A DNA stretch of 64,000 nucleotides, from assembly GCA_038741495.1 (NCBI GenBank), contig JAVYKX010000001.1, positions 738,918 to 802,917 on the forward strand, read 5' to 3'. The translations under genes were made by a program, and so were the position numbers. A model generated the notes under the pieces. That model did no database searches. It had not been told where the DNA came from and saw only the letters and a program-made list of their open reading frames with translations. Source of the stretch: Thermofilum sp. Its GTDB lineage: Archaea > Thermoproteota > Thermoprotei > Thermofilales > Thermofilaceae. Positions within the stretch are counted from its first letter, which is position 1; the number at the start of each line of letters is the position of its first letter. Positions 9,030-60,311 of the stretch are shown piece by piece.

Positions 9030-10209
9030 AGCGCAGCGCCTCAACCGGGTTCAGCTGAGCGGCACGGCGCGAAGGCACGTACGCAGCGATAGCGTTCGCG
9101 AGCAGCGGCAGCAGCGCTGCTGCCGCGACGGTCTGCGGTGTGAGGACTGGGCTGATCTCGAAGCCGAACGCTGATATCTTGACCGCCAGCGAGAGCGCTA
9201 GCGACACGGCCAGGCCGGCTGCGACGCCGATCGCAGAGACTACAGTCGCTTCGAGCACGAAGAGGAGGAGCACGTCGACCCCCGTGTAGCCAAGCGCTTT
9301 CAGGATGCCGATCTCCTTCGTCCTCTGAATCACGCTGATTGCGGTGCTGTCGAGGATCCAGAGAGCTGTGACACCCATGCCGACTGCCGAGATCAGGCCG
9401 ACGAAGAGCTGGAGAGCGCCGACCAGGGAGACGAACTGTTGCACAATCGCCGCGGCGGAAATCACCCTCGAGCCCGGCGGGGACACAGCTCTGATGTCTG
9501 CCGTGACCTCCTCCAACCTAGAGAGGTCCTCGACGAGGACTAGCGCAGCCGAGTAGCTCCGGGATGGTGAAACGTAAGCGAAGAAGGTGTCCGGGCTCAT
9601 GTAGATACTCGGTGCCGCAAACGTCACCCCGTGCCCCATCCCCCCGGAGGAGCCGATCTGCTTCAGCAACCCTACGGCGATGAGCTGCAGGCTCCTTCCC
9701 CTCAACCTGATGGTGAGCGTGGAGCCGATGTCTAGCAGCTTCCTCCCAGTGCCGGGATCTGCCCAGAGGTCGTGGGAGACGAGAACCCCCATGCCTCTCG
9801 GCTCGCTCTCGCCCTCCTCGACAGCTTTCGTCATGTCGCCGACGCCCAGGTAGAGTGGCAGCACTGCAGGGTCCACTGCGACGATCTGCACCGTCTTCTC
9901 GCCGTCCGCTGTGAAGATAGTACCCTGAGCCATCGCGATGCCGAAAGCATCCCTCACCCCAGCTACGCCCTTGAAGTACATGATGTCGATGTCGGTTAAG
10001 CCGGCTGCACCCCCAACCACTATGATGCTGTTAGCGGCGACAGTCCTTTGAAGCTGCTCCACGAACTCTCTCTGGAAGCTCTCGCCGATCCCGAGCGCCA
10101 TGCTCAGCGCGATAACCGCTATCATTACCCCGATTACCGCACCAATCGCTCTACCTCTCTTCTCGATAAGGCTCGTCGTCGCGAGGTAGATGTAATCAGC
10201 TGCCTTCAC
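9022..10209 (-). CDS. MacB/FtsX-like ABC permease
   Basis: This 395-residue protein has one N-terminal membrane helix (about 18-40), a long extracellular domain (about 45-255) and three C-terminal helices (about 260-385). It ends with ANAIAAYVPSRRAAQLNPVEALRYE, shortened here to the typical FtsX terminus SRRAAQLNPVEALRYE. That is the MacB periplasmic-core plus FtsX layout. The GTG start at 10209 overlaps the stop of the upstream surface-protein gene by 14 nt. The system is probably a mechanotransmitter acting on an extracellular partner, with the upstream CARDB protein the obvious candidate. Confidence 0.88.
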   Translation of the reverse strand: MKAADYIYLATTSLIEKRGRAIGAVIGVMIAVIALSMALGIGESFQREFVEQLQRTVAANSIIVVGGAAGLTDIDIMYFKGVAGVRDAFGIAMAQGTIFTADGEKTVQIVAVDPAVLPLYLGVGDMTKAVEEGESEPRGMGVLVSHDLWADPGTGRKLLDIGSTLTIRLRGRSLQLIAVGLLKQIGSSGGMGHGVTFAAPSIYMSPDTFFAYVSPSRSYSAALVLVEDLSRLEEVTADIRAVSPPGSRVISAAAIVQQFVSLVGALQLFVGLISAVGMGVTALWILDSTAISVIQRTKEIGILKALGYTGVDVLLLFVLEATVVSAIGVAAGLAVSLALSLAVKISAFGFEISPVLTPQTVAAAALLPLLANAIAAYVPSRRAAQLNPVEALRYE

Positions 10210-11764
10210 GCCTGAACACCCTCCTCCTCAGCGCGAAAACCCCCGCTCCCACGAGCACCAGAGCGAGCACCGCTAGAGCTGTGCCGCCCCACGGGCTGCT
10301 TCCCTGGGAGCCTTGAGAGGCTTGGCGCGCGACAGCGTTGATTAGGATGCTTCGCTCAACCACCCTGGCGACGCCGTAGGGGTCCCTGAAGTAAGCGACT
10401 ACCCTAAGCTCGTGGACACCCTCCTCGTCGACACGGAACGAGAAAGGTACGCTCGTCAGCACTTGAGGGTTGAGCTGGCCGAGGTAGGCATAAGGCGTCC
10501 TAAGCGGTGTTAAGCCCCTTGAAGCCTGAACGGAGACGTTCACTGCGTAAATGGGGAGAGTCCCGTCGTTCACGAGTGTCGCAGCTAGGATGAGGTTTGA
10601 GCCAACCTGCGGCTGCTGCGGTACCGCCTCGAGGCTCGTGATCGTTAACCGGGAAGCGAAAACCGTGAAGAGGGTGAAAGCGCCCTGAAGTGACGAGATC
10701 GACCCGCTCTCTGTCGTGAAGAAAACCTGGTAGGTTATCGATTCGCTGCTCGAGGCCGTGGCGGGTGCTAGGACTTCGACGCTGAACACCTTGTCCTCGC
10801 CGGGCTGAAGGCTCCCTACGTCGAGGAGCGAGGGGTTCACGGAGATTTGGCTCTTCTGAAGGGATAGGACGACCTTAACTCCTTGCAGAGGCACGCTGCC
10901 CACGTTAACCACGTGAAGGTTAACTCGGTTGGGCGAGCCCGCTGTCACCACCGCGGGGTCTGGGGCTACGAGGATGCTCTGCCCAGAAGCTGTGAAGAGC
11001 GGGATCGATATCGTCCTGGACACTAGTGAGCCCGTGCAGCTCACGTAGGAGATGCTAACCTGCAGCGTGGGGGAGGCCGTCGGCACTAGGTTCAAGTAAA
11101 AGGATGCGAGCTGGCCGGGCTCTAGCCTAGGGAGCGTGAACACGGCAGGTACCTCGCGGTCAAGGAGAACTGCACCCTGGGGGTAGACTGAGAGGAAAAT
11201 GCTGGATACGCTCTCCCTCCCTCTGTTCTCTACGTTTACGCTGACCAGGTTGGGGGAGCCGGAGTACAGTGCGGAGGGTGAGACGCTGACAGCTACGTTT
11301 TCACCCCAGCAAGCCGTGATGCTGAGGTCCATCAGCACAGCGCCTCCCTCGTAGGTGAGAGAGGCGAGCGAGTCGTCCCACGTGTTGTCCCAGCTGATGA
11401 TCAGCTTAGCTGGGCAGATAGGCTTCGCTTTAGTTGTGTTGAGAGTTACCTGGAATGTTTTTGCGGTGCCGGGGCGCCACGAGCCTAACGCGACTGGTTG
11501 ACCAGACAGCACTGATGCGTTGCAAAGCAGCTCGAGCTCCGCTTGAGCGCCCAGCAGCGTTCTCTTCCCGAAGTACGAGACTGTCAGCTGAACTACTCCC
11601 CTGTCAGCGCTCGAGTCGATCACGCTCAAGCTTTCAACTGTGAAGACGAAAGTTGAAGGAGTTAACCCTGTGGTCTGCCGCTGAGGCTGTGCGAGTGGCT
11701 GAGCTCCCGCGAGCGCTAGAGCCGCGAGTACCAGCGCGAGGAGATAGATGGAGAGCCTCCTCAT
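10196..11764 (-). CDS. Secreted, membrane-anchored CARDB/NEW3-type surface protein
   Basis: From the ATG at 11764 the protein has about 522 residues. The signal peptide reads LSIYLLALVLAALALAGAQP. Several beta-sandwich repeats follow, with motifs such as VNVENRGRESVSSIFLSVYP and LHVVNVGSVPLQGVKVVLSL that are typical of archaeal CARDB/NEW3 adhesion-like domains. A C-terminal membrane helix (ALAVLALVLVGAGVFAL) and basic tail anchor it, so the repeats face outward. It starts the operon with the MacB-like permease and ATPase. A longer frame continues upstream, but the signal peptide fixes this start. An AT-rich palindromic stretch (CTCGATATATCGCGAG) lies about 10-25 nt upstream. Confidence 0.82.
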   Translation of the reverse strand: MRRLSIYLLALVLAALALAGAQPLAQPQRQTTGLTPSTFVFTVESLSVIDSSADRGVVQLTVSYFGKRTLLGAQAELELLCNASVLSGQPVALGSWRPGTAKTFQVTLNTTKAKPICPAKLIISWDNTWDDSLASLTYEGGAVLMDLSITACWGENVAVSVSPSALYSGSPNLVSVNVENRGRESVSSIFLSVYPQGAVLLDREVPAVFTLPRLEPGQLASFYLNLVPTASPTLQVSISYVSCTGSLVSRTISIPLFTASGQSILVAPDPAVVTAGSPNRVNLHVVNVGSVPLQGVKVVLSLQKSQISVNPSLLDVGSLQPGEDKVFSVEVLAPATASSSESITYQVFFTTESGSISSLQGAFTLFTVFASRLTITSLEAVPQQPQVGSNLILAATLVNDGTLPIYAVNVSVQASRGLTPLRTPYAYLGQLNPQVLTSVPFSFRVDEEGVHELRVVAYFRDPYGVARVVERSILINAVARQASQGSQGSSPWGGTALAVLALVLVGAGVFALRRRVFRREGS

Positions 11765-11860
11765 ATTTCTACTCGATATATCGCGAGATAAAGTAGCCCT
11801 ATAAGCTTTGCGCAGCCGCCTTTGCACTGCTCGCAGCTGCCCTTTGGCCGCAGACAAGTA

Positions 11861-11868
11861 GATATACC
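11861..11868 (+). promoter_or_regulatory. TATA box for ferredoxin-AOR operon 1
   Basis: GATATACC is centred 26 nt before the ATG at 11891, the spacing expected for a leaderless archaeal transcript. No Shine-Dalgarno sequence precedes this ATG. Confidence 0.55.
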
Positions 11869-11890
11869 GGCTGAAGCAGGATACCGAGCA

Positions 11891-12391
11891 ATGAGTAAGC
11901 CTCTGTTCATTCTGCGAGACCCTCTCAAGTGCTCGGGTTGCCGCCTCTGCGAAGTCGCCTGCTCCCTCAGGCACGAGGGCACGGTGTGGCCGGAGGCCAG
12001 CAGGATAAAAGTATTCGAGCTATTCCCCGGTGTCGACGTGCCGCACACCTGCGCGCAGTGCAGGGACTACCCCTGCGTTAAAGCCTGCGGGTACGGGGCT
12101 CTCAAGCCCGACGAGAGAACGGGCGCCGTGCTTGTAGACGCGGAGAAGTGCGTGAGCTGTGGGGAGTGCGTGAAAGCGTGCCCTGGCAAGGTGATGAGGC
12201 TGCACCCAGCTACCCGAAAGGCGATGGTGTGCGACCTCTGCGGGGGAGATCCGGAGTGCGTGAAGGTTTGCGTCGAGGCAGGCTTCAACGCCCTGACGGT
12301 TATCCCCTACGAGAGCGTCACCCTCCACGTCTACTCCATCGTGCCGGACGAGGTTTCGCGGAGGCTTTACGAGACGCTTTTCGGCGAGTAG
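11891..12391 (+). CDS. 16-Cys polyferredoxin subunit of AOR (cytoplasmic)
   Basis: This 166-residue iron-sulfur protein has four cysteine groups: CSGCRLCEVAC near residue 15, CAQCRDYPCVKAC, CVSCGECVKAC and CDLCGGDPECVKVC. They fit four [4Fe-4S] clusters in the HycB/DmsB-like arrangement. There is no signal peptide, so it should be cytoplasmic. The AOR gene follows 9 nt after its stop, and ferredoxin-like small subunits are known partners of WOR5- and GOR-type AORs. It would pass electrons from the AOR to a soluble acceptor. A paralogue with a Tat signal lies at 21196 beside a second AOR. Confidence 0.88.
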   Translation: MSKPLFILRDPLKCSGCRLCEVACSLRHEGTVWPEASRIKVFELFPGVDVPHTCAQCRDYPCVKACGYGALKPDERTGAVLVDAEKCVSCGECVKACPGKVMRLHPATRKAMVCDLCGGDPECVKVCVEAGFNALTVIPYESVTLHVYSIVPDEVSRRLYETLFGE

Positions 12392-12400
12392 GTGGAGGGC

Positions 12401-14278
12401 ATGCAGCTGTACGGCTACCACGGGAGGCTCCTCGAAGTGGATCTCTCCAGGGAGAGGAGCAGGGAAGTAGAGATCGAGCCCGAGATCCTGGAGCAGTACG
12501 TGGGCGGTAGGGGGCTGGCCTCCTACCTGCTTTGGAGGGAGCTCGGCGGCAGCTGGCGCGAGGTGGACCCGCTGGGCCCCGAGAACTTGCTGCTCCTCCT
12601 CACGGGCCCGCTGACCGGCTACTACCCTGGCGTGAAGCTGGCGGTTTCGGGGAAAAGCCCCCAGAGTAATGGGATCGTTGGGTCGGTTCTGTCCAGCGAG
12701 GTTGCAATAGAGCTGAAGGCTGCCGGTTACGACGGCCTCGTGGTGAGGGGACGGGCCAGCAGCCCTGTCTACGTGTACGTCGAGGGGGACAGGGTTGAAA
12801 TCAGGGAGGCGGCGCACCTCTGGGGGCTGGGCGGCAGGGAGACTTTCCGGAAGCTGATGGAGGAGCTCTGGGGCGAGCTGAAGAGGCGGCGCCTAGCCAG
12901 GGAGGGGTTGACGAAGGAGCCTTCGTTCGTGTACATCGGCCCCGCCGGCGAGAACAGGGTTAGGACCGCTGCCGTCATGGCGAAAATCGCCCACGCGGCA
13001 GGCTACGGGGGTTACGGGGCGGTTATGGGGAGCAAGAACCTGAAAGCTGTTGCTGTGAAGGGCTTCGGCCCCATGCCGAGGGCGAAGAGGCCCGAGCTCG
13101 TGAAGATTCTCCTGCGCGAGGCCTGGAGGAGGCTCGTGAGGCGCACGGGCTTCAGGCAGTGGGGGACGGGGAGCGGAGGGTACTACTTCGCTTCAGTGAC
13201 TAGCAGCGAGCCTGTCAGGAACTGGCAGGAGGAGTGGCACGCGAACCGGGCTTTCGGCCCGCAGAACTTTGAAGCTCACTGGGTGAAGAGGTACTGGGGC
13301 GATTACGGCTGCCCTACGACCTGCATGAAAATCTCTGCTATACGCTCCGGGGCGCACCGCGGCGCGCTCACGGACGCTCCCGACTACGAGATGCAAGCTT
13401 ACCTCGGGGCGAACCTCGGGGTTCTCGAGCCCAAGGCGTGCATCTACCTCTCCAGCTTAGCCGACGAGCTCGGCCTCTGCGGTATACAGACGGGCAACGT
13501 GGCCGGCTTCGCCGCGGAGCTGTTCCAGAGGGGGATCTTGACGCGGGAGGATATCGGCTTCGACCTCCGCTGGGGTGACGCTAAAGCGTTCGCTAAGCTG
13601 CTGGAGATGATTGCGCGTAGGGAGGGGATCGGGGACGTGCTCGCCGAGGGGACTTACCGCGCAGCGCTGAGGATCTCGAAGGAGAAGGGTGTGGATGCTC
13701 TCCAGTACGCGGTGGTCTCCAAGGCCATCGGGGTGGGCGCCCACGGGGTAAGGAGCGCGAAAGACTTCCTTCCCGACTTCTCGTACGCAGTCTGCGTGCA
13801 GGGTGGGGACCACACCTCAGCGCCAACGGGCTTGAGAGGCTACAAGAGCGAAGTCTCCTCCGCGTTCGACGACTCCGCTGTCATCTGCTCGTTCAACAGC
13901 ATCCGGGAGCTAGCCTTCCCCCTCCTCCAGGCTGTAACCGGCTTCGACATCGATGAGGAGCGTTGGTCGAGGGAGCATGGCCGCAGAATCCTGACGATCC
14001 AGCGCGTGGCGCTCCTCGAGGGGGGCCCAGACCTCCGCTGGAGGCCTGGACTCGACGACGACCTTCCGCCGCGCTTCTACGAGCCCCTGCCCTCCGGGCC
14101 CTTCCGGGGCCGCGCCGCGAACCGCGAGGAAGTTGCCGCGAAGAGAAAAGAGTACTTCCTCTCTCTCGGCTGGGACGAGCAGGGGATCCCGCGGGACGAG
14201 ACGCTGGAGGAGCTGGGCCTCGGCTTCCTCAAGCCAGCTGTCTCGAGGCTCAGAAGCGAGCTAGAACACGGAAGCTAG
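12401..14278 (+). CDS. Aldehyde ferredoxin oxidoreductase, tungstopterin family (AOR 1)
   Basis: This protein of about 625 residues has the AOR start GYHGRLLEVDLSRER, the pterin-binding region GGRGLASYLLWREL, TGKSPQSNGIVG-like VSGKSPQSNGIVGSVLS, GPAGENRVRTAAVMAKIAHAAG, and the pterin contact VQGGDHTSAP. The family oxidises aldehydes to acids with a W-bis-pterin and one [4Fe-4S] cluster. The usual cluster motif CxxCxxxC appears here as DYGCPTTC, with Asp in place of the first Cys. The fourth ligand region VICSF is intact. The start is set by AGGTG six nt before the ATG at 12401; a GTG at 12392 is the alternative. The substrate is unknown. Confidence 0.92.
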   Translation: MQLYGYHGRLLEVDLSRERSREVEIEPEILEQYVGGRGLASYLLWRELGGSWREVDPLGPENLLLLLTGPLTGYYPGVKLAVSGKSPQSNGIVGSVLSSEVAIELKAAGYDGLVVRGRASSPVYVYVEGDRVEIREAAHLWGLGGRETFRKLMEELWGELKRRRLAREGLTKEPSFVYIGPAGENRVRTAAVMAKIAHAAGYGGYGAVMGSKNLKAVAVKGFGPMPRAKRPELVKILLREAWRRLVRRTGFRQWGTGSGGYYFASVTSSEPVRNWQEEWHANRAFGPQNFEAHWVKRYWGDYGCPTTCMKISAIRSGAHRGALTDAPDYEMQAYLGANLGVLEPKACIYLSSLADELGLCGIQTGNVAGFAAELFQRGILTREDIGFDLRWGDAKAFAKLLEMIARREGIGDVLAEGTYRAALRISKEKGVDALQYAVVSKAIGVGAHGVRSAKDFLPDFSYAVCVQGGDHTSAPTGLRGYKSEVSSAFDDSAVICSFNSIRELAFPLLQAVTGFDIDEERWSREHGRRILTIQRVALLEGGPDLRWRPGLDDDLPPRFYEPLPSGPFRGRAANREEVAAKRKEYFLSLGWDEQGIPRDETLEELGLGFLKPAVSRLRSELEHGS

Positions 14279-15055
14279 CCTGCCCCCGTCGACCGGGATC
14301 ATCGCTCCGTTTATGTAAGCCGCGTAGTCGCTGGCGAGGAAAGCCGCAAGGTAGCCGACCTCCTCGGGCCTTCCGAGCCTCCCCGAAGGGATTCCGGAGG
14401 CGAGGCGCTTCAAAGCTTCTTCCCGGCCCACCCCTTCCCTCTCCTGGATGTCCCTGGCAATCTCCTCCACTCTCGAGGTGTGGATGATGCCCGGCATGAT
14501 CCCGTTGGCGGTCACCCCGTAGCTTCCAACTTCTTTAGCGAGCGTTCGCACGAGGCCGGCGATCCCGATCCTAACCACGTTGCTGAGGACTAGGTTGGGG
14601 ATAGGCTCCTTGATCGCTACGCTGGCAAGGTAGATCAAGCGGCCCCATCTCCGCTCAATCATCGCCGGGAGGAGCTCCCTCGTGAGGTAGACTGCGGGCA
14701 CGAGGAGCAGCCTGTACGCCTGATCCCAGTCCTCAATGTTCAGCTCAAGGAAGTAGCCGGGTCTCGGCCCCCCGGTCGAGTAGAAGAAAATGTCGGGCCC
14801 GCCTCTGTCCTTCGCTTCGCGCGATAGCCTCTCAAGGTCTGCACGCGACGTCAAGTCGCCGGGCACTGCCATAACGTCCCTCCCGGTCTCCGAGGAGATC
14901 CTCCTTCGCGCTTCCTCGAGCCGGTCGCGGTCACGCGAGTTGATTACAAGGTCGGCACCGCACTCCGCGAGAACTCGGGCGACTCCGAAGCCGATCCCCC
15001 TGGAAGCTGCGGTGACGAGCGCTAGCTTACCCTTCAGGTTGATTACCAGCGGCAC
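14261..15055 (-). CDS. Short-chain dehydrogenase/reductase family protein with altered active site
   Basis: This 264-residue protein has a Rossmann fold with TAASRGIG near residues 16-23 and the SDR C-terminus IPVDGGR. After the catalytic Ser region (LASVAIKEP), the position of the usual Tyr is Ser and the Lys four residues on is Arg (SNVVR). Known BKR-like SDR subgroups lack the YxxxK pair, so it may use a different mechanism or bind without catalysis. The GTG start at 15055 lacks an obvious SD sequence; a TATA-like AGTATATT lies about 25 nt upstream. Its 3' end overlaps the AOR 1 gene tail to tail by 18 nt. Confidence 0.85.
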   Translation of the reverse strand: MPLVINLKGKLALVTAASRGIGFGVARVLAECGADLVINSRDRDRLEEARRRISSETGRDVMAVPGDLTSRADLERLSREAKDRGGPDIFFYSTGGPRPGYFLELNIEDWDQAYRLLLVPAVYLTRELLPAMIERRWGRLIYLASVAIKEPIPNLVLSNVVRIGIAGLVRTLAKEVGSYGVTANGIMPGIIHTSRVEEIARDIQEREGVGREEALKRLASGIPSGRLGRPEEVGYLAAFLASDYAAYINGAMIPVDGGRLASVF

Positions 15056-15125
15056 AGGAGAAGAAGTGCAGAAGTCGAGTAATATACTCTTCCGCCGAGC
15101 GTGAAGCAGAGGACCCTGCCGGCGC

Positions 15126-15251
15126 TCACCGGGAAGCCAGCCCGCTCAGCCTCTCCTCTGCGTGCTTCCTCGCCGCCTCCACGAGCTCCTCAGGCCCCAG
15201 CTCCTCGTCCGCTAGCCCCTCCGGCTTTTCCGCGAGGCTCACGAGCCCCAC
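15126..15251 (-). pseudogene. Coding relic, unrecognised C-terminal fragment
   Basis: Within the 321-nt gap between the SDR and cysteine synthase genes, the minus strand carries a 61-codon open frame (15126-15311). It ends in LADEELGPEELVEAARKHAE and a short basic tail. The regular acidic/basic helix pattern and GC-rich third positions look like real protein. There is no ATG, and only in-frame GTGs at 15251 and 15242 could start it. I do not recognise the family. It may be the tail of a lost gene or a very short protein. Confidence 0.3.
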
Positions 15252-15376
15252 TCGAGGGACTCCGAGCGCGCGAGTGGTCTGCGCTGAGTCCTCGGGGGCT
15301 GGTGAAGCGTCAAAATAATGGACTATACCTTAATTTTCGCTTTACGCTGTCAAAACATTTAAGTCTTGCAACAGCG

Positions 15377-16546
15377 ATGTTGCCTGTGCCGCGGTTCGAG
15401 CGTAACGGGCAGCTTGCGCGAATCCTAGAGGAAGCTGGGAGAATCCTCAGCAGCGGGTACGTTGAGTGGCCACCTCGCGGTAACCGTGAAGTTGTTGAAG
15501 AAGCGTTGAGGATGCTCGGCTGCAGAATCCCGGACCGCGCTGGAGCTTTCCCGCTGGAGGAGCTCGGCTTTTTCAGCGGGATCTCGCCGTCGCCTCTGCG
15601 GGTTTTCGAGAGCACTGAGGAGCTCCTCTACAGGAACTGGCCCACTCCCCTCGTTAAGCTGAGGTCCCTGTCGGGAGAGGGTGTAAGCGCGTGGGCTAAG
15701 CTGGAGTTCTACAACCCCTTCAGCATGAGCGTGAAGGATAGGATCGGGTGGTCCATGGTCACCGAGTACCTGGCTCGAAACCCCGGTGCTAACGTGGTTC
15801 TCTACGAGGCAACCAGCACGAACACTGGCATGGCGCTCGCAGCTATGGCGGCGGTGAAGAACCTTAAGGTGAAGCTGTACCTTCCGGCTACTATCCAGAA
15901 GGCATCCGACATCCTGCTCACCGTCATGGGGGCTGAAGTCTACAGGAAGCCGAAAGCGCTGACAGTAGAGTTCATCGAGGAGGTGGATGAGGAGGCGAGG
16001 AAGGCTGGCGGTGCGCACTTAAACCAGTTCGAAAATGACGCGAACTTCAGAGTGCACCTCCAGTATACGGCTAAAGAGCTCGACCTGCAGGCGAGAAGCG
16101 TGCCCCTGGACTTGAAAGGGATCGTGGGAGGTCTCGGAACCTCGGGCCACATGTCCGCGATAGCTCTCTACTTCAAGAGCAGATACAGCGGCAGAGTGAG
16201 GATTTACGGGGTCCAGCCGGCGCCAGGCACCGCGATACCGGGTATCCGGCGCATCGAGACAGGGATGAAGTGGGTTCACTACGTGGACTTTGACACCGTG
16301 GTCGACGTCTCGCCTGACGAGGCTGTAGAGCACGCTATACGCGTCGCCAGGAGCGAGGGGCTGCTCATCGGCTTGAGCAGCGGCGCCGTCACGGCAGCTT
16401 TCGAGAAGCTGAGAAGAGAAAAGCTTCTCGAAAAAGGCGACTACGTGCTAGTGTACCCTGACCACGGCTTCAAATACGTGGAGCAGTTCGCAGAGTACCT
16501 GTCCAGGAAAACAGTAATCGGCGAGCAGCAGCAATACCGCACTTGA
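15377..16546 (+). CDS. O-phosphoserine sulfhydrylase / cysteine synthase
   Basis: From the ATG at 15377 the protein has 389 residues, the size of the characterised Aeropyrum pernix O-phosphoserine sulfhydrylase, including the extra N-terminal region of about 80 residues absent from ordinary CysK. The PLP lysine lies in SMSVKDR, the substrate loop in ATSTNTGMALAAMAA, and the phosphate-binding glycines in GGLGTSGHMSA. It makes cysteine from O-phosphoserine (or O-acetylserine) and sulfide. AT-rich TATA-like elements (TTAATTTTCG and ACATTTAAG) lie 19-45 nt upstream. The long upstream extension of the frame is low-complexity Pro/Ala and is not translated in my view. Confidence 0.9.
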   Translation: MLPVPRFERNGQLARILEEAGRILSSGYVEWPPRGNREVVEEALRMLGCRIPDRAGAFPLEELGFFSGISPSPLRVFESTEELLYRNWPTPLVKLRSLSGEGVSAWAKLEFYNPFSMSVKDRIGWSMVTEYLARNPGANVVLYEATSTNTGMALAAMAAVKNLKVKLYLPATIQKASDILLTVMGAEVYRKPKALTVEFIEEVDEEARKAGGAHLNQFENDANFRVHLQYTAKELDLQARSVPLDLKGIVGGLGTSGHMSAIALYFKSRYSGRVRIYGVQPAPGTAIPGIRRIETGMKWVHYVDFDTVVDVSPDEAVEHAIRVARSEGLLIGLSSGAVTAAFEKLRREKLLEKGDYVLVYPDHGFKYVEQFAEYLSRKTVIGEQQQYRT

Positions 16547-51601: not shown

Positions 51602-52009
51602 GTGGCGGACAAGAATATCGAGGAAGGGCTGCGCTGGCTCGACCAGGCGGAAGCCGACCTCAAGACCGCTAAGGATTGCCTTAAGGACGGCAACTACTAC
51701 GCGGCAGCATTCTTCTCGCAGCAGGCGGCCGAGAAGGCTCTCGAGGGCTTCCTCTACTCGAAGGGCTACAGAGCGCTGCTAACACACTCGGTGCTGGACT
51801 TAGTGGGCGAGGCTTCAAAGCTTGAAAGCGGGTTCGGGAGGTTTACGGACTTCGCTAGGGAGCTGGATAGGCACTACATAGGCTCAAGGTACCCGAACTT
51901 CTACCCGTCTGGCGCCCCCTACAGGTACTATACGGCTGAGGTGGCTGAGAGGTGCGTGTACTACGCAGAATCGATCTTAGTAGAAGTGAGGAGGTTCTTG
52001 CGAAAGTAG
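51602..52009 (+). CDS. HEPN-domain protein (toxin partner of MNT)
   Basis: This 135-residue helical protein has the HEPN features WLDQAEADLKTAKDCLKDGN, AAFFSQQAAEKALEGFLYSK and RYPNFYPSGAPYRYYTAEVA. An Rx4H motif (RALLTH) like that of HEPN ribonucleases lies near residue 60. It overlaps the nucleotidyltransferase gene by 58 nt, forming a HEPN/MNT pair that may act as toxin-antitoxin. The GTG at 51602 has no clear SD; CTTTAATGC about 30 nt upstream may be its TATA box. Confidence 0.82.
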   Translation: MADKNIEEGLRWLDQAEADLKTAKDCLKDGNYYAAAFFSQQAAEKALEGFLYSKGYRALLTHSVLDLVGEASKLESGFGRFTDFARELDRHYIGSRYPNFYPSGAPYRYYTAEVAERCVYYAESILVEVRRFLRK

Positions 52010-52320
52010 AGAAGTACAAGGAGGCTATCGTCAGGAGGCTGAAGCCGAAGAAGATCATCCTCTTCGGCTCTTTCGCTAGAGGCGACTACAGCGAGGCCTC
52101 CGACATCGACTTGATCGTCGTAGCGGACTGGAGCGAGCCGTTCCTCGACAGGATCAAGGTGCTGCTGGAGCTGAACGACCAGTTGCTGCCCGTAGAGCCC
52201 ATCGGCTACACTGAAGAGGAGATCAGGAGAATGGTCGAGAGCGGGAACCCCTTCATACTGAAGGTCCTGGAAGAAGGCGTAGTAATCTACGAGGAAGGTC
52301 GCCCCACCGAGAATGAGTAA
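51952..52320 (+). CDS. Minimal nucleotidyltransferase (MNT), HEPN partner
   Basis: This 122-residue protein has LFGSFARGDYSEASDIDLIV near residues 37-56, with the GSxxRG and SDxD motifs. The third Asp of catalytic nucleotidyltransferases may be Glu in EPIGYTEEE. The start used here is a GTG deep inside the HEPN gene; a shorter product cannot be excluded because no later ATG or GTG exists before the conserved core. The sequence downstream to 52953 contains no intact gene. Confidence 0.8.
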   Translation: MRVLRRIDLSRSEEVLAKVEKYKEAIVRRLKPKKIILFGSFARGDYSEASDIDLIVVADWSEPFLDRIKVLLELNDQLLPVEPIGYTEEEIRRMVESGNPFILKVLEEGVVIYEEGRPTENE

Positions 52321-52953: not shown

Positions 52954-53358
52954 CTAGAGAGTTTCCGGCTTGATGCGCGTTAGCCCGGGCACCTTTTCAT
53001 AGGCTTTGTCGAAAGAAATTATTTTACCATCTAGGTTCAGCGCGGTCGCGGCGTAATGTGAGTCAAAGAAAGATAGGTTGAGCGTCTGCCTCAAGTACAC
53101 GCTCGTAAGCGCTACGTCAGGTGTCAGCGGCACGTATTCTACGTTCGGTAGCGCAGCTAGAGCAGCTAAGTCCTTCAGGAGCCTACCCTCCCTCTTCTCG
53201 CTCCTGTAGATGAGTTCCATCTCGAGTAGGCTGATGCTCGAAATCTCTACGCGGAGTTCGCCCCTCCTAAGCTTCTCGAATATCCTTTCGGCATTTTCGT
53301 GGTTTGGGTCGTACTCGTTCAAGTACGCGAAAATTACGTCGTTCTCCAGCAGGGGCAT
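52954..53358 (-). CDS. vapC: VapC toxin, PIN-domain ribonuclease
   Basis: This 134-residue protein has acidic sites in PLLENDVIFAYL, SLLEMELIY, SFFDSHYAATAL and IISFDKAYE. In the first motif the usual Asp is Glu-Asn-Asp. It lies 6 nt after the stop of an AbrB-type antitoxin gene. It is probably an active toxin. Confidence 0.85.
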   Translation of the reverse strand: MPLLENDVIFAYLNEYDPNHENAERIFEKLRRGELRVEISSISLLEMELIYRSEKREGRLLKDLAALAALPNVEYVPLTPDVALTSVYLRQTLNLSFFDSHYAATALNLDGKIISFDKAYEKVPGLTRIKPETL

Positions 53359-55462: not shown

Positions 55463-55858
55463 CTATAGCTCGGTGAGGATTCTTAGCCCGAAGCTCCTCA
55501 GCTTCTCGTAGTGCCCCAGGTCTCTGGAGAGCAGCGGCGCGTCAAGCGTGAGCGCGGTTGCAGCGATTAGAACGTCTGCTTGGGGGATCGAGAACCCCTG
55601 CTTCCTGAGCTGGACGTCCAGCTCCATTGCCTTGAGCGTGATCCGCTGATCGGGGTAGACAACTGTGAAAATTTTCTCGATCAGCTCCTTCTCCTTCAGG
55701 TGGTCGCGGCCGATGTAGAGGTATCCCCACAGGTACTCGTAGAGGGCGACAGAGGGCACAAACACGTCGAACTCTAGGAGTTTCAGCAAGAGCCTCTCGT
55801 CTCCCCGCTCGAAGATGTCGATGAGGATGTTCGTGTCGACTACAATCTTCTCAGCCAC
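55463..55858 (-). CDS. vapC: VapC toxin, PIN-domain ribonuclease
   Basis: This 131-residue PIN protein has VVDTNILIDIFERGD, SVALYEYLWGYL, IPQADVLIAATAL and LLSRDLGHYEKL. All four acidic sites are intact, so it should be an active RNase. It overlaps its antitoxin gene by 19 nt. Confidence 0.9.
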   Translation of the reverse strand: MAEKIVVDTNILIDIFERGDERLLLKLLEFDVFVPSVALYEYLWGYLYIGRDHLKEKELIEKIFTVVYPDQRITLKAMELDVQLRKQGFSIPQADVLIAATALTLDAPLLSRDLGHYEKLRSFGLRILTEL

Positions 55859-56876: not shown

Positions 56877-58709
56877 GTGGGCGAGAGGATCGTGCCGCCG
56901 AGCATGCGCTGGAAGGCGATGAGCCTCCAAGAGTACCAGCGCATCTACTCGGAGAGCGTGAGGAACCTCGAGGGCTTCTGGGCCCGCGAAGCCGGTAAGC
57001 TGAAGTGGAGGGAGCCCTGGCGCTCCGTGAGGGAGGGCGCGGGGCCGGCCTCGAGCTGGTTCGTGGGTGCGAGCCTCTCCCCCTACGAGAACGTCGTCTC
57101 GAAGCACGAGGGTACTTGGGTGTGGCACAAGCCTGCGCTCATCTGGGAGAACGAGGCTGGGGATTCGAGGATCGTCACCTACGCGGAGCTCGACAGCCTC
57201 GCGTCCAGGCTGGCTGCCGGCCTGGCGAGCCTGGGGGTGAGGAGGGGGGACTGGGTGGTAGTCTACTCGCAGCCTTCCATCGAGTCGGTTGCCGCGATGC
57301 TGGCAGCCGTGAAGCTGGGAGCCCCCTTCGAGCCTGTCTTCACAGGCTTCAGCGCGGAGGAGCTGGCCCGCAGGCTCGCGAGGAGGAAGGCGAAAGCGCT
57401 GGTCACCTCGTCGGGCTTCCTGAGGAGGGGGAGGGCCGTCCCCCTCGCCGGGGCAGCGCGGGAAGCTCTAAGCCGCTCCGGCGTCCAGGCCCATCTTGTA
57501 GTCGCGGGGGAGGGGGCGGCGGAGGGGGGCATCGCTCTCGACGACCTCCTGCAGTGGGGCAGCTTGAAGGAGAGCGCGGTAGTCTCCTCGAACCACCCGC
57601 TGTTCGGGCTACACAGCGGGTACGAGGACGGCTTTCACCCTATCGCGCACCCAGCGGGGGGCTTCCTGGTGCAGGTCTACTCGACTAGCCAGTGGATCGG
57701 GCTGCGGCCCCGCGACACTTACTTCTGCACGGTGTGGCCCGGCTGGATCACCGGCGTCTCCTACGTGGTTTTCGGCCCGCTGATGGTGGGCTCCACAGTC
57801 CTCCTCTACGAGGGTGGGCCCGACTGGCCCTCCTGGAACCGGTGGCTCGAGCTGATCGACAGCTACGCGGTCACCCTCTTCCTCACCACCTCGAGCGCGC
57901 TGCGCATGATGTCGCGGCAGGAACCCTCAGCCCTCACCTCGAACAATGACACGCTGAAAGCGGTCCTCGTCACCGCCGAGCCGCTCGAAGCCGAGGTGTG
58001 GAGGTGGAGCTACGAGCGCCTCGCCTCCCTCACGGTACCGGTTGTCGACTCCGATGGGAGGAGAGCGGTGCCGGTGGTGAACCTCTACATCCAGAGCGAG
58101 GTCGGCACCTTCCTCACGGGGAACCTCGTCAACTACACCTTCCCGCCCGTGGCGCCCGGCTCAGCCGGCCCCCCGATCCCCGGCTTCCACCTCGACGTCG
58201 TGGACGAGCGCGGCGCGAGCGTGCGCGGCGCTCCAGGCCGCCTCGTCGTGAAGGGCTCGTGGCCTTCAATGCCTGTGGAGGCGCCGAGCGTTTTCCGGGA
58301 GAGGTGGGCTGGAGAGGTCTACGATACAGGCGACGAGGCGGTGATGCTCGACAGCTACATCCACCCGCTGGGTAGGCGCGACCCTGTGCTGAAAGTCAGC
58401 GGGTACAGGCTGAGCCCCGGAGCAATCGAGCGGGCGGCCGAGTCCCTGCCCGGCGTGCGGGCCGCGGTCGCGGCTGGGCTGAGGGACGAGCTGAGGTTCG
58501 AGGTACCCGTGCTGGTGTACGAGGGTGAAGCGGAGCCCGGCGAAGTTCGGCGGAGGGTGCGCGAAGCTGTGGGCCCTATCGCCGAGCCCCAGCACGTCTT
58601 CAGGGTCAGCTCGCTGCGCGGAGCGAGAGCTGAGCTGAGAGCGAAGCTTAAGCGGCTGCTCCGCGAGAAGACGCTGGAGGAGGCGGTGAGGGAGCTTGCC
58701 GCCGGCTAA
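56877..58709 (+). CDS. Acetyl/acyl-CoA synthetase homologue lacking catalytic motifs
   Basis: This 610-residue protein is collinear with AMP-forming acetyl-CoA synthetase: N-terminal EYQRIYSESVRNLEGFWARE, the middle block VWPGWITGVSYVVFGPLMVG, the hinge region YDTGDEAVML and GRRDPVLKVSGYRLSPGAIE. However, the P-loop between NHPLF and GGFLVQV, normally TSGSTGKPKG, reads GYEDGFHPIA. The C-terminal catalytic lysine motif (RSGK) reads RAELRAK, and the A5 motif is YIQSEVG. It is therefore probably a pseudoenzyme. The start follows the previous stop directly. Full length without frameshift argues for a retained function. Confidence 0.82.
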   Translation: MGERIVPPSMRWKAMSLQEYQRIYSESVRNLEGFWAREAGKLKWREPWRSVREGAGPASSWFVGASLSPYENVVSKHEGTWVWHKPALIWENEAGDSRIVTYAELDSLASRLAAGLASLGVRRGDWVVVYSQPSIESVAAMLAAVKLGAPFEPVFTGFSAEELARRLARRKAKALVTSSGFLRRGRAVPLAGAAREALSRSGVQAHLVVAGEGAAEGGIALDDLLQWGSLKESAVVSSNHPLFGLHSGYEDGFHPIAHPAGGFLVQVYSTSQWIGLRPRDTYFCTVWPGWITGVSYVVFGPLMVGSTVLLYEGGPDWPSWNRWLELIDSYAVTLFLTTSSALRMMSRQEPSALTSNNDTLKAVLVTAEPLEAEVWRWSYERLASLTVPVVDSDGRRAVPVVNLYIQSEVGTFLTGNLVNYTFPPVAPGSAGPPIPGFHLDVVDERGASVRGAPGRLVVKGSWPSMPVEAPSVFRERWAGEVYDTGDEAVMLDSYIHPLGRRDPVLKVSGYRLSPGAIERAAESLPGVRAAVAAGLRDELRFEVPVLVYEGEAEPGEVRRRVREAVGPIAEPQHVFRVSSLRGARAELRAKLKRLLREKTLEEAVRELAAG

Positions 58710-59097
58710 CCCTGAAGTGGCTGAAGCGGTGAGGAAGGCGAGGGAGGTTGTCGACAGCGCTCTCTCGGGCGCGTGCGGCGATAGCCTCTGCGAAGCTGTG
58801 AGAGACCTCTACGCGAGCTTCCCGCGGAGGGGCTGGCTGGTGCGCGCTACAGCTAGGCTCTTAATGGGGACTGTCAGGCGTTCGAAAGTCCCCTGGCTCT
58901 GGTACGTTGACGGTATTAAGGACTTCGGCGACAGCCAGGCAGTCTACCTGGTGGAGCTGGTGGGCGGGGAGGGCTACAGGTGCAGCTGCCACAAGAGCCT
59001 CTACGGGTACAGGAGGAGGGCTAGGGTCTGCACGCACGCCGCAGCGGTCATGCTTTACAGGCGGCAGCTGCAAGTGCTCGACTTCCTCGGGGGCTAG
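58696..59097 (+). CDS. SWIM zinc-finger domain protein
   Basis: This 133-residue protein has a helical N-terminal half and a C-terminal SWIM motif, YRCSCHKSLYGYRRRARVCTH (CxC...CxH, quoted here by its ends YRCSC and VCTH). A helix follows. SWIM domains bind DNA or proteins. The TTG start overlaps the upstream gene by 14 nt, so the three genes of this operon are co-translated. The pairing of SWIM with a degenerate acyl-CoA synthetase is unexplained. Confidence 0.75.
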   Translation: MPPANPEVAEAVRKAREVVDSALSGACGDSLCEAVRDLYASFPRRGWLVRATARLLMGTVRRSKVPWLWYVDGIKDFGDSQAVYLVELVGGEGYRCSCHKSLYGYRRRARVCTHAAAVMLYRRQLQVLDFLGG

Positions 59098-59219: not shown

Positions 59220-59645
59220 CTAGGCCTCGCTACGGACCCTTCTCGCAGAGCCAGAGCCGGGCGACTCGCTGCGAGCCCTGAGCTCTGGGGAGCTGGATAA
59301 GCCGTAGTCGTCTCTCAGGAAGACACCGCTGCGGGCTGCTTCGAGGGCCAGAGGGTTGCCTTTCTTCAGCAGGAGCGCGAACTCCTCCGGAGTCCACACT
59401 ATAACCTCGTAGCCCGGCGGGGCTTCTACCTTCCTCAGCCTCTCCAGGGGGCCGCCTCCGAGCTCTCCGGTTATTAAGAGAACATCGACATCGCTCCACT
59501 TGTTGAAGTCGCCTCTAGCGTAAGAGCCTACCAGGATAGCTGTAGCTTTGAAGCTCAGGCTCGAAGCCCACCTCCTGGCTTCCTCCACTACTCTCCTCCT
59601 CTCCGCAGCTCTCCTTCTAACGACCTCCACGTATCTTCGACCCAC
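59220..59645 (-). CDS. Minimal nucleotidyltransferase (MNT), HEPN partner
   Basis: This 141-residue protein has ILVGSYARGDFNKWSDVDVL near residues 37-56 with intact GSxxRG and SDxD, a third acidic residue in YEVIVW, and a charged tail of low complexity. It overlaps the HEPN gene by 58 nt, the same length as in the 51602/51952 pair. Confidence 0.82.
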   Translation of the reverse strand: MGRRYVEVVRRRAAERRRVVEEARRWASSLSFKATAILVGSYARGDFNKWSDVDVLLITGELGGGPLERLRKVEAPPGYEVIVWTPEEFALLLKKGNPLALEAARSGVFLRDDYGLSSSPELRARSESPGSGSARRVRSEA

Positions 59646-60019
59646 TCCAGAATACGTTTCGACGCACTAATAGCTTTAGCAGCATCGTCTGCGGTGTAGT
59701 ACTCGAAGGGCGCCCCTTCAGCCCACGCGTTAGGGTACCTTGTAGGGATGTACAGCTTATCTAGCTCCCTAGCGCAGTCCACCAGCTCGCCCGGGACGCT
59801 TAAGCCTCTGTTCGAAGCTTCCCTGAGCAGCCTCGCGACGCTGTGACCGTAGGCGTGCAAGCCGAGGCCGTGCAGCAGAGCCTTTACAGAGAGCTCGGCC
59901 GCCTGGTGGGACTTGAAGCAGGCCCAGTTGTAGTCGCCTCTCTCCGCATCCCCCTCGGCGGACTCGAGACTCTTCTTGGCGGTTCTAAACCACCTTTCAA
60001 ACTCCTCCCTGTCGAGCAA
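59588..60019 (-). CDS. HEPN-domain protein paired with MNT
   Basis: From the TTG at 60019 the protein has 143 residues: WFRTAKKSLESAEGDAERGD, CFKSHQAAELSVKALLHGLG and TRYPNAWAEGAPFEYYTADD are HEPN landmarks. The Rx4H RNase motif is not evident (the region reads GLHAYGHS), so it may be a binding subunit rather than a toxin. The open frame extends to 60064, but CTTATAAGG near 60046-60054 is a strong TATA box about 30 nt before the TTG, which I prefer. Confidence 0.78.
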   Translation of the reverse strand: MLDREEFERWFRTAKKSLESAEGDAERGDYNWACFKSHQAAELSVKALLHGLGLHAYGHSVARLLREASNRGLSVPGELVDCARELDKLYIPTRYPNAWAEGAPFEYYTADDAAKAISASKRILEWVEDTWRSLEGELRRGGE

Positions 60020-60311
60020 GAAGACCGCTCTCCCGCGGTCTCGAACCTTATAAGGCTTCCGCACCTACTTGTAGGCTAAAAGCCTCAAGCAGGCTTCACC
60101 GCTCCCGGGCTCCTCTTCATCAGATCCCCGCAGCTGCCAGGCACTAAGCGAAGCTGAAACCGGTAAGCGTGGTTTTCAACGCTTCGAGGAGAGCGGTGCT
60201 CGCGAGGCTGAGGAGTAGCTGGCTCGCAGTATACCGGCCTTCGCGATCACGGGGTGACGTGGAGCGGGCAGCGAGGGTGGCGCGAGCCCGGGGCTGGAGG
60301 AGTGGGTTGAG

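Follow-up and report, generated by a model that had tools for sequence, protein, structure and literature searches.

The question raised by this locus is what role could be served by a full-length homologue of acetyl-CoA synthetases (ACS) whose ATP-handling motifs have disappeared, encoded within a window of 64,000 nucleotides (the whole stretch of Thermofilum sp. DNA that was analysed). An earlier note, made from the letters alone, had described the gene, here called pACS, as an intact full-length frame of ACS ancestry, and both Pfam and an alignment to a solved structure agree: the protein contains AMP-binding (PF00501; 164.5 bits against a gathering cut-off of 29.9), ACAS_N (48.5 against 27) and AMP-binding_C (25.9 against 24.5) domains and no other Pfam domain, while its residues 13-606 align to the solved acetate--CoA ligase 8rpk with an E value of 7.7e-78. 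The same protein falls well short of the NCBIfam cut-offs for ACS (TIGR02188, 348.7 against 724.95 bits; PRK00174, 352.2 against 657), and the second ACS homologue of the same genome is of canonical type and 39% identical to it. Since the ANL-superfamily features A5 Glu, A7 Asp and A8 GRxD...GxR are all found, pACS is assigned to the ANL fold from its sequence; an AF2 model of it (mean pLDDT 49.7, input alignment of six sequences) was kept out of the fold comparison. The features discussed below are collected in Table 1.

Table 1. Positions in the window of pACS, its motifs and the neighbouring genes.
Feature	Position	Strand	Remarks
Pair of HEPN and nucleotidyltransferase (MNT) genes, toxin-antitoxin-like	51602-52320	+	first of two pairs
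PIN-domain gene, VapC-like	52954-53358	-	first of two
PIN-domain gene, VapC-like	55463-55858	-	second of two
MBL-fold partner, 202 aa	56268..56876	+	abuts pACS without a gap; in relatives usually after hypE
pACS, ACS paralogue predicted to be dead for ATP activation, 610 aa	56877..58709	+	GTG start, intact frame
Kept RRGR block (residues 183-186)	57423..57434	+	R183, G185 in 31/31
Replaced P-loop, GYEDGFHPIA (residues 248-257; canonical TSGTTGKPK)	57618..57647	+	from alignment
Altered A5 motif, YIQSEVG (residues 404-410; canonical WWQTETG)	58086..58106	+	E408 in 31/31
Kept A8/hinge block (residues 499-511, GRRDPVLKVSGYR)	58371..58409	+	R500, D502, K506, R511 in 31/31
Region without the catalytic Lys, RAELRAK (residues 584-590)	58626..58646	+	from alignment
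Small ORF with a CxC...CxH SWIM-like pattern, recognised by eye	58696-59097	+	shares 14 bp with the 3' end of pACS
Pair of HEPN and nucleotidyltransferase (MNT) genes, toxin-antitoxin-like	59220-60064	-	second of two pairs

To place the gene among its relatives, orthologues were gathered by two routes. A pattern scan across genomes recovered five relatives at 50-54% identity (L003-L007, archaeal MAGs), and whole-genome searches returned orthologues at 47-59%, separated by a clear gap from canonical ACS at no more than 41%. The search of the phylum covered 398 genomes, a subset of a larger group, with at most three candidates scored per genome; other phyla were covered by one insensitive pattern scan, which does not imply that pACS is absent from them. 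The resulting set, whose hosts are hot-spring archaea of the Thermoproteota, comprises 33 loci: 31 full-length copies, one copy truncated by its contig (DRTY201901, L006) and a fragment with one in-frame stop (G398). These last two were excluded from the residue counts, and the 3'-cut copy of G203 (the same record as L007) was counted.

The motif losses noticed in the single gene turn out to be properties of the whole family. The P-loop TSG(S/T)TGxPK, which the earlier note had found replaced, is present in 0/31 full-length pACS and in 12/12 canonical archaeal ACS, and the catalytic C-terminal lysine (SGK; K609 of Salmonella enterica Acs), also reported as gone, has the same distribution, no lysine occupying that column in any of the 31. 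Residue equivalences were taken from MAFFT and from alignments to 2p2j and 2p2b, the latter two also fixing the position of the lysine. Among 30 pACS (the contig-cut G203 excluded; two others yielded no GPIAEP-like block), at least nine proteins end 10-18 residues past the start of the GPIAEP-like block, and therefore lack the whole A10 element. The claim that the TE motif had likewise been lost was overstated: the A5 sequence is indeed altered, but its glutamate, E408, is found in all 31 copies and is preceded by serine or threonine in 28. A divergent subclade (L054-L056, from G044, G031 and G039) reads ITRE where the others have IQ(S/T)E and, at the former P-loop, PAT where they have H(S/V/A)(G/A). 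As the P-loop and the catalytic lysine are two defining catalytic features of an acetyl-CoA synthetase and both are missing, pACS is, judged by its motifs, not an acetyl-CoA synthetase.

The other half of the active site tells a different story. Ten residues are invariant in 31/31 copies (R183, G185, T292, E368, E408, D486, R500, D502, K506 and R511); we take the RRGR block to be the CoA-binding block of ACS, and the counterparts of the kept residues in S. enterica Acs presumably contact CoA, the ribose, the alpha-phosphate and the metal. The acyl pocket has been reshaped in a uniform manner, the equivalents of V310, V386 and G387 being Ile, Thr and Ala in 31/31 and that of W414 being Ile in 30/31, so that the tryptophan pair of ACS has become (Y/F)I; two tyrosines, Y510 (30/31) and Y249 (29/31), are newly conserved. 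Across the 326 columns that are invariant in canonical ACS (at least 11/12 sequences), 82 are kept in pACS (at least 20/22), 23, acyl-pocket positions among them, have switched to another conserved residue and 221 have drifted. In terms of these residues, pACS is predicted to have lost the ATP/pyrophosphate side and to have retained, but rebuilt, the acyl/thioester side.

A decaying gene, or an artefact of sequencing or annotation, would be one account of such losses, and an in-frame stop does occur, in the G398 fragment only. We consider this account vanishingly improbable and, for the family, disproved: the 31 full-length orthologues are free of internal stops, and pACS is under purifying selection, with dN/dS of 0.115-0.196 (eight pairs); five pairs each of HypE and of the neighbouring MBL gene gave 0.068-0.088 and 0.124-0.287, respectively. 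Local decay or error at the window's own copy was likewise rejected on the strength of the 31 conserved orthologues. The G398 fragment itself lies at a contig edge (L081, 1-1290) in a genome where HypD was not found, and perhaps reflects an error, or decay once the hyp genes had been lost. In a tree rooted on canonical ACS, pACS forms a single clade on a long branch (node support 0.584, a value affected by rooting). Because the losses are common to the orthologues, dN/dS is low and 23 invariant columns have been fixed anew, it is well supported that pACS is a conserved pseudoenzyme serving some new function, in line with the pseudoenzyme proposed in the earlier note; in the orthologue collection that the note had called for, the losses are shared, and canonical motifs, the outcome named there as contrary, occur in 0/31.

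Regarding what that role may be, the kept residues would allow the binding of acyl-CoA or AMP that the note suggested, but the suggestion is too general, and the main clue lies beyond the gene that the note had described, in its co-occurrence with hyp genes and with a gene for a metallo-beta-lactamase (MBL)-fold protein. The order hypD-hypC-hypE-MBL-pACS is found in 12 loci, with hypF preceding in three; four loci read hypC-hypE-MBL-pACS and four hypA-hypB-pACS-hypE, and most of those remaining have other orders beside nikR, hypA, hypB or hypD. A HypA-F gene lies within 10 kb of pACS in 29/33 loci; in 28/33 a gene for Hyp, NikR or MBL is no more than 200 bp away, the MBL gene being directly adjacent in 19. 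Pfam confirms HypF, HypD, HypC, HypE-type AIRS domains and HypA in example neighbourhoods. As a control, neither a hyp gene nor the MBL gene was found near canonical ACS in any of 16 genomes taken from those that carry pACS. In four loci no hyp gene lies within 10 kb (G028, G048, G398 and the window's genome, G000): in G048, pACS, MBL and HypD occupy three distant places, and in G000 the MBL-pACS pair is abutting and intact but the hyp genes lie elsewhere, hypC-hypE on contig C1 at about 162 kb and hypD on contig C4. The Thermoproteus tenax genome paper lists hyp genes at scattered genomic positions without naming them (PMC3189178). The small ORF overlapping the 3' end of pACS was considered as an operon partner and rejected; it has no Pfam match, and nothing matching it lies near any other pACS.

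The maturation machinery beside pACS looks whole. The PRIC tail is intact in 24/24 complete HypE, the nine conserved HypD cysteines are kept and HypF has its full domain set in the one example scanned; for these reasons the module would add to HypA-F rather than replace part of it. It would also be dispensable for maturation in general, since it is missing from 30 of the 52 HypD-bearing genomes of the class.

The distribution of the gene across genomes follows the same line. Within the class (81 genomes), pACS occurs in 22 genomes and HypD in 52, HypD being present in 22/22 pACS genomes against 30/59 others (Fisher 1.1e-5, with related genomes that are not independent trials). One family, f9, has 12 genomes with both genes, seven with neither and none discordant. 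Across the phylum (398 genomes), 30 of the 31 pACS genomes have HypD, against 220/367 others, the sole exception being G398; genome sampling is phylogenetically uneven, so that Fisher values given here are not independent-trial probabilities. A [NiFe] large-subunit family match was obtained in 21/22 pACS genomes of the class, the exception, G075, being 79% complete. A tie between pACS and one hydrogenase class was considered and rejected; G012 carries pACS and no large-subunit frame longer than 437 aa.

The association extends to the ancestry of the Hyp proteins themselves. A HypD tree was built from 32 genomes with pACS and 39 without (one more, G021, was left out, its frame not being recovered), the 39 being 29 of the 30 HypD-bearing genomes of the class that lack pACS and ten of the phylum. 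All 32 HypD of pACS genomes fall in one clade of 34 members (support 0.899), whose only members without pACS come from incomplete assemblies: G015, a sister of G012 whose HypD ends at a contig end, and G062, which is 67% complete. The other 37 lie outside the clade, and they include congeners of pACS carriers (G014 and G016 against G012; G168 and G173 against G082). A smaller tree, with 23 genomes having pACS and 20 lacking it, gave monophyly at 0.973, and pACS and HypD distances are correlated (r 0.79, 31 genomes, 0/2000 permutations). From the clade and the correlation it follows that HypD-C-E, MBL and pACS were inherited or transferred together as a cassette.

These patterns bear on the idea that pACS works in general metabolism as an active transferase or ligase for CoA, using a pre-activated donor such as an acyl phosphate, formyl phosphate or acyl-AMP, and merely travels with the hyp genes. 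The kept thioester-half residues would suit such an enzyme, as would the copies of G028, G048 and the window that lie away from hyp genes. We nevertheless find it improbable, for the coupling outlasts synteny in G048, the seven HypD-less genomes of family f9 all lack pACS, and pACS follows one HypD clade.

The second gene of the pair has nearly the same distribution as pACS. The MBL orthologue was found in 23 genomes of the class, comprising 22/22 pACS genomes against 1/59 others; the lone genome having it without pACS, G079, is 73% complete, the weakest matches among pACS genomes are those of G003 and G031, and what the remaining genomes contain is, at best, an MBL paralogue that matches less well and mostly over part of its length. 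By Pfam the protein is of Lactamase_B_3 type. Its AF2 model (pLDDT 86.3) has UPF0173 hydrolases as top structural matches (3kl7, Z 24.9, rmsd 2.3, 188 aligned; 3x2y, Z 22.9, rmsd 1.9, 175 aligned), and it thus resembles TM1162 and Igni18 in fold. It differs from UPF0173 in scoring 47.2 bits against NF001911 (cut-off 144), in possessing a C-terminal QPYTQ block of its own and in its metal motif: of 28 copies, 26-27 retain H57, H59, H62, H106, D128 and H176, but the Asp of HxHxDH (D61) is found in only two and lost in 26. A mononuclear metal site is plausible. In one locus (L044, G003, MBL at about 10000-10542) all metal ligands are lost, yet the order hypE-MBL-pACS is kept.

By genetic linkage and co-occurrence with hyp genes, comparative genomics strongly supports pACS as a putative accessory factor of the Hyp system, to which it and MBL contribute a conserved module of two genes. 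On the grounds of shared motif loss, purifying selection and physical as well as phyletic coupling to hyp genes and the MBL gene, we regard it as quite likely that pACS and MBL together constitute an ATP-independent accessory factor of one [NiFe]-hydrogenase maturation (Hyp) lineage in the Thermoproteota. Given that hypE-MBL-pACS is the commonest gene order, the pair would act alongside HypC, HypD and HypE, during assembly of the Fe(CN)2CO group. In the mechanism that we tentatively favour, pACS would bind CoA, an acyl or formyl thioester, or an adenylate in the thioester half of its site, which is kept (R183, E408, D486, R500 and R511) and has a rebuilt pocket, and jointly with MBL would handle a C1 unit destined to be the CO ligand.

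That pACS and MBL supply the CO ligand is our leading guess on mechanism, held tentatively. It is an argument by elimination, no HypA-F enzyme being assigned to CO and no protein of HypX length being present in these genomes, and by analogy, drawing on HypX, the retained CoA-side residues, E408 and the new tyrosines. Formyl_trans_N gave no match in 13 of the 22 pACS genomes; the other nine have frames of at most 330 aa, a frame type that also occurs in HypD-less genomes. The fuller version, an ATP-independent CoA-linked route such as decarbonylation of formyl- or acyl-CoA on a repurposed ACS fold, is a possibility we would put forward with some doubt. A review describes the source of the CO ligand in anaerobes as unresolved and discusses formyl-CoA as a possible precursor (PMC12134894). 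Counting against a CO step are 20 HypD-bearing genomes of the class in which both the module and a CODH/Prismane match are missing, the presence of both in G000, and the loss of the MBL Asp in 26/28 copies and of all metal ligands in G003.

The relation to carbon monoxide dehydrogenase (CODH) deserves separate mention. CODH is found in 1/22 pACS genomes against 10/30 HypD-bearing genomes without pACS (Fisher 0.016, the genomes being clustered by genus), and a simple replacement of CODH-derived CO by the module was rejected as an explanation, as this clustering and the 20 genomes with neither leave the pattern suggestive at most. The one pACS genome of the 22 with a CODH match is G000, where the module is retained. 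Its cluster (contig C4, L164, about 9572-16346, some 5 kb from hypD) encodes a CODH (Prismane, 638 aa), a 4Fe-4S protein, a MinD-type ATPase, an Mrp-type antiporter subunit and a 49-kDa/[NiFe] large subunit, and looks like a CO-oxidising, H2-evolving system.

Chemistry need not be involved at all. pACS may instead be a structural or regulatory Hyp subunit, an adaptor that binds a nucleotide or CoA and serves as a sensor of AMP or CoA or as a scaffold for HypC-D-E or the large subunit, which we hold to be possible, if hardly probable. Loss of P-loop and lysine in 31/31 with E368, D486, R500 and R511 kept fits binding without turnover, and the partner's metal motif is altered too; the rebuilt acyl-pocket columns (T366, A367, I405 and I291) and the retention of E408, however, suggest a specific substrate.

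The chemistry of ACS is the transfer of an adenylate to a thiol. This second half-reaction, and the position of hypE as usual upstream neighbour of MBL-pACS, would suit a role on the cyanide side, with pACS helping HypF and HypE to pass on a carbamoyl-adenylate or the HypE-Cys thiocarbamate/thiocyanate. We judge such a role unlikely, because the known CN route already looks complete, in HypF by the one example and in HypE by the 24 PRIC tails.

Set beside known systems, pACS shares with AcsA (TIGR02188, PRK00174) whole-length homology, the ACAS_N and AMP-binding domains, A7/A8, the A5 Glu and the RRG(K/R) block, and departs from it in the P-loop, the catalytic lysine and the acyl-pocket tryptophan pair, as well as in a hyp gene context where that of AcsA is metabolic. 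Like HypX, it is an accessory gene of hyp clusters, for which a CoA-linked role may be proposed by analogy (PMC6802093, PMC12134894). HypX, the formyl-THF/formyl-CoA decarbonylase in the maturation of O2-tolerant hydrogenases, is in its architecture a formyltransferase joined to an enoyl-CoA-hydratase-like domain, in contrast to the ANL fold of pACS; the notion of pACS as HypX in disguise was rejected, Pfam finding neither domain in it. HypX represents the aerobic solution: it is reported to bind CoA constitutively, with a proposed decarbonylation of formyl-CoA via a Tyr and a Glu (PMC6802093). With the HypA-F system, pACS loci share operons and the components HypC, D, E, F and A, and pACS and MBL make two genes more than the HypA-F and HypX covered in passages of the review (PMC12134894). 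The placing of pACS in the Hyp system is new here; within the titles, abstract openings and passages of open-licence PMC text covered by the searches, no description of pACS or MBL in hyp clusters, or of a pseudo-ACS, was found.

An automatic pipeline that named pACS genes acetate--CoA ligase would be mistaken; they offer a clear case of an ACS without ATP chemistry whose thioester-side pocket has been kept and rebuilt. For the Hyp machinery, two conserved genes tied to it by synteny, co-occurrence and inheritance with one HypD lineage become named candidates. If the CO role were true, the module would parallel HypX in anaerobic archaea and could explain where the ligand comes from.
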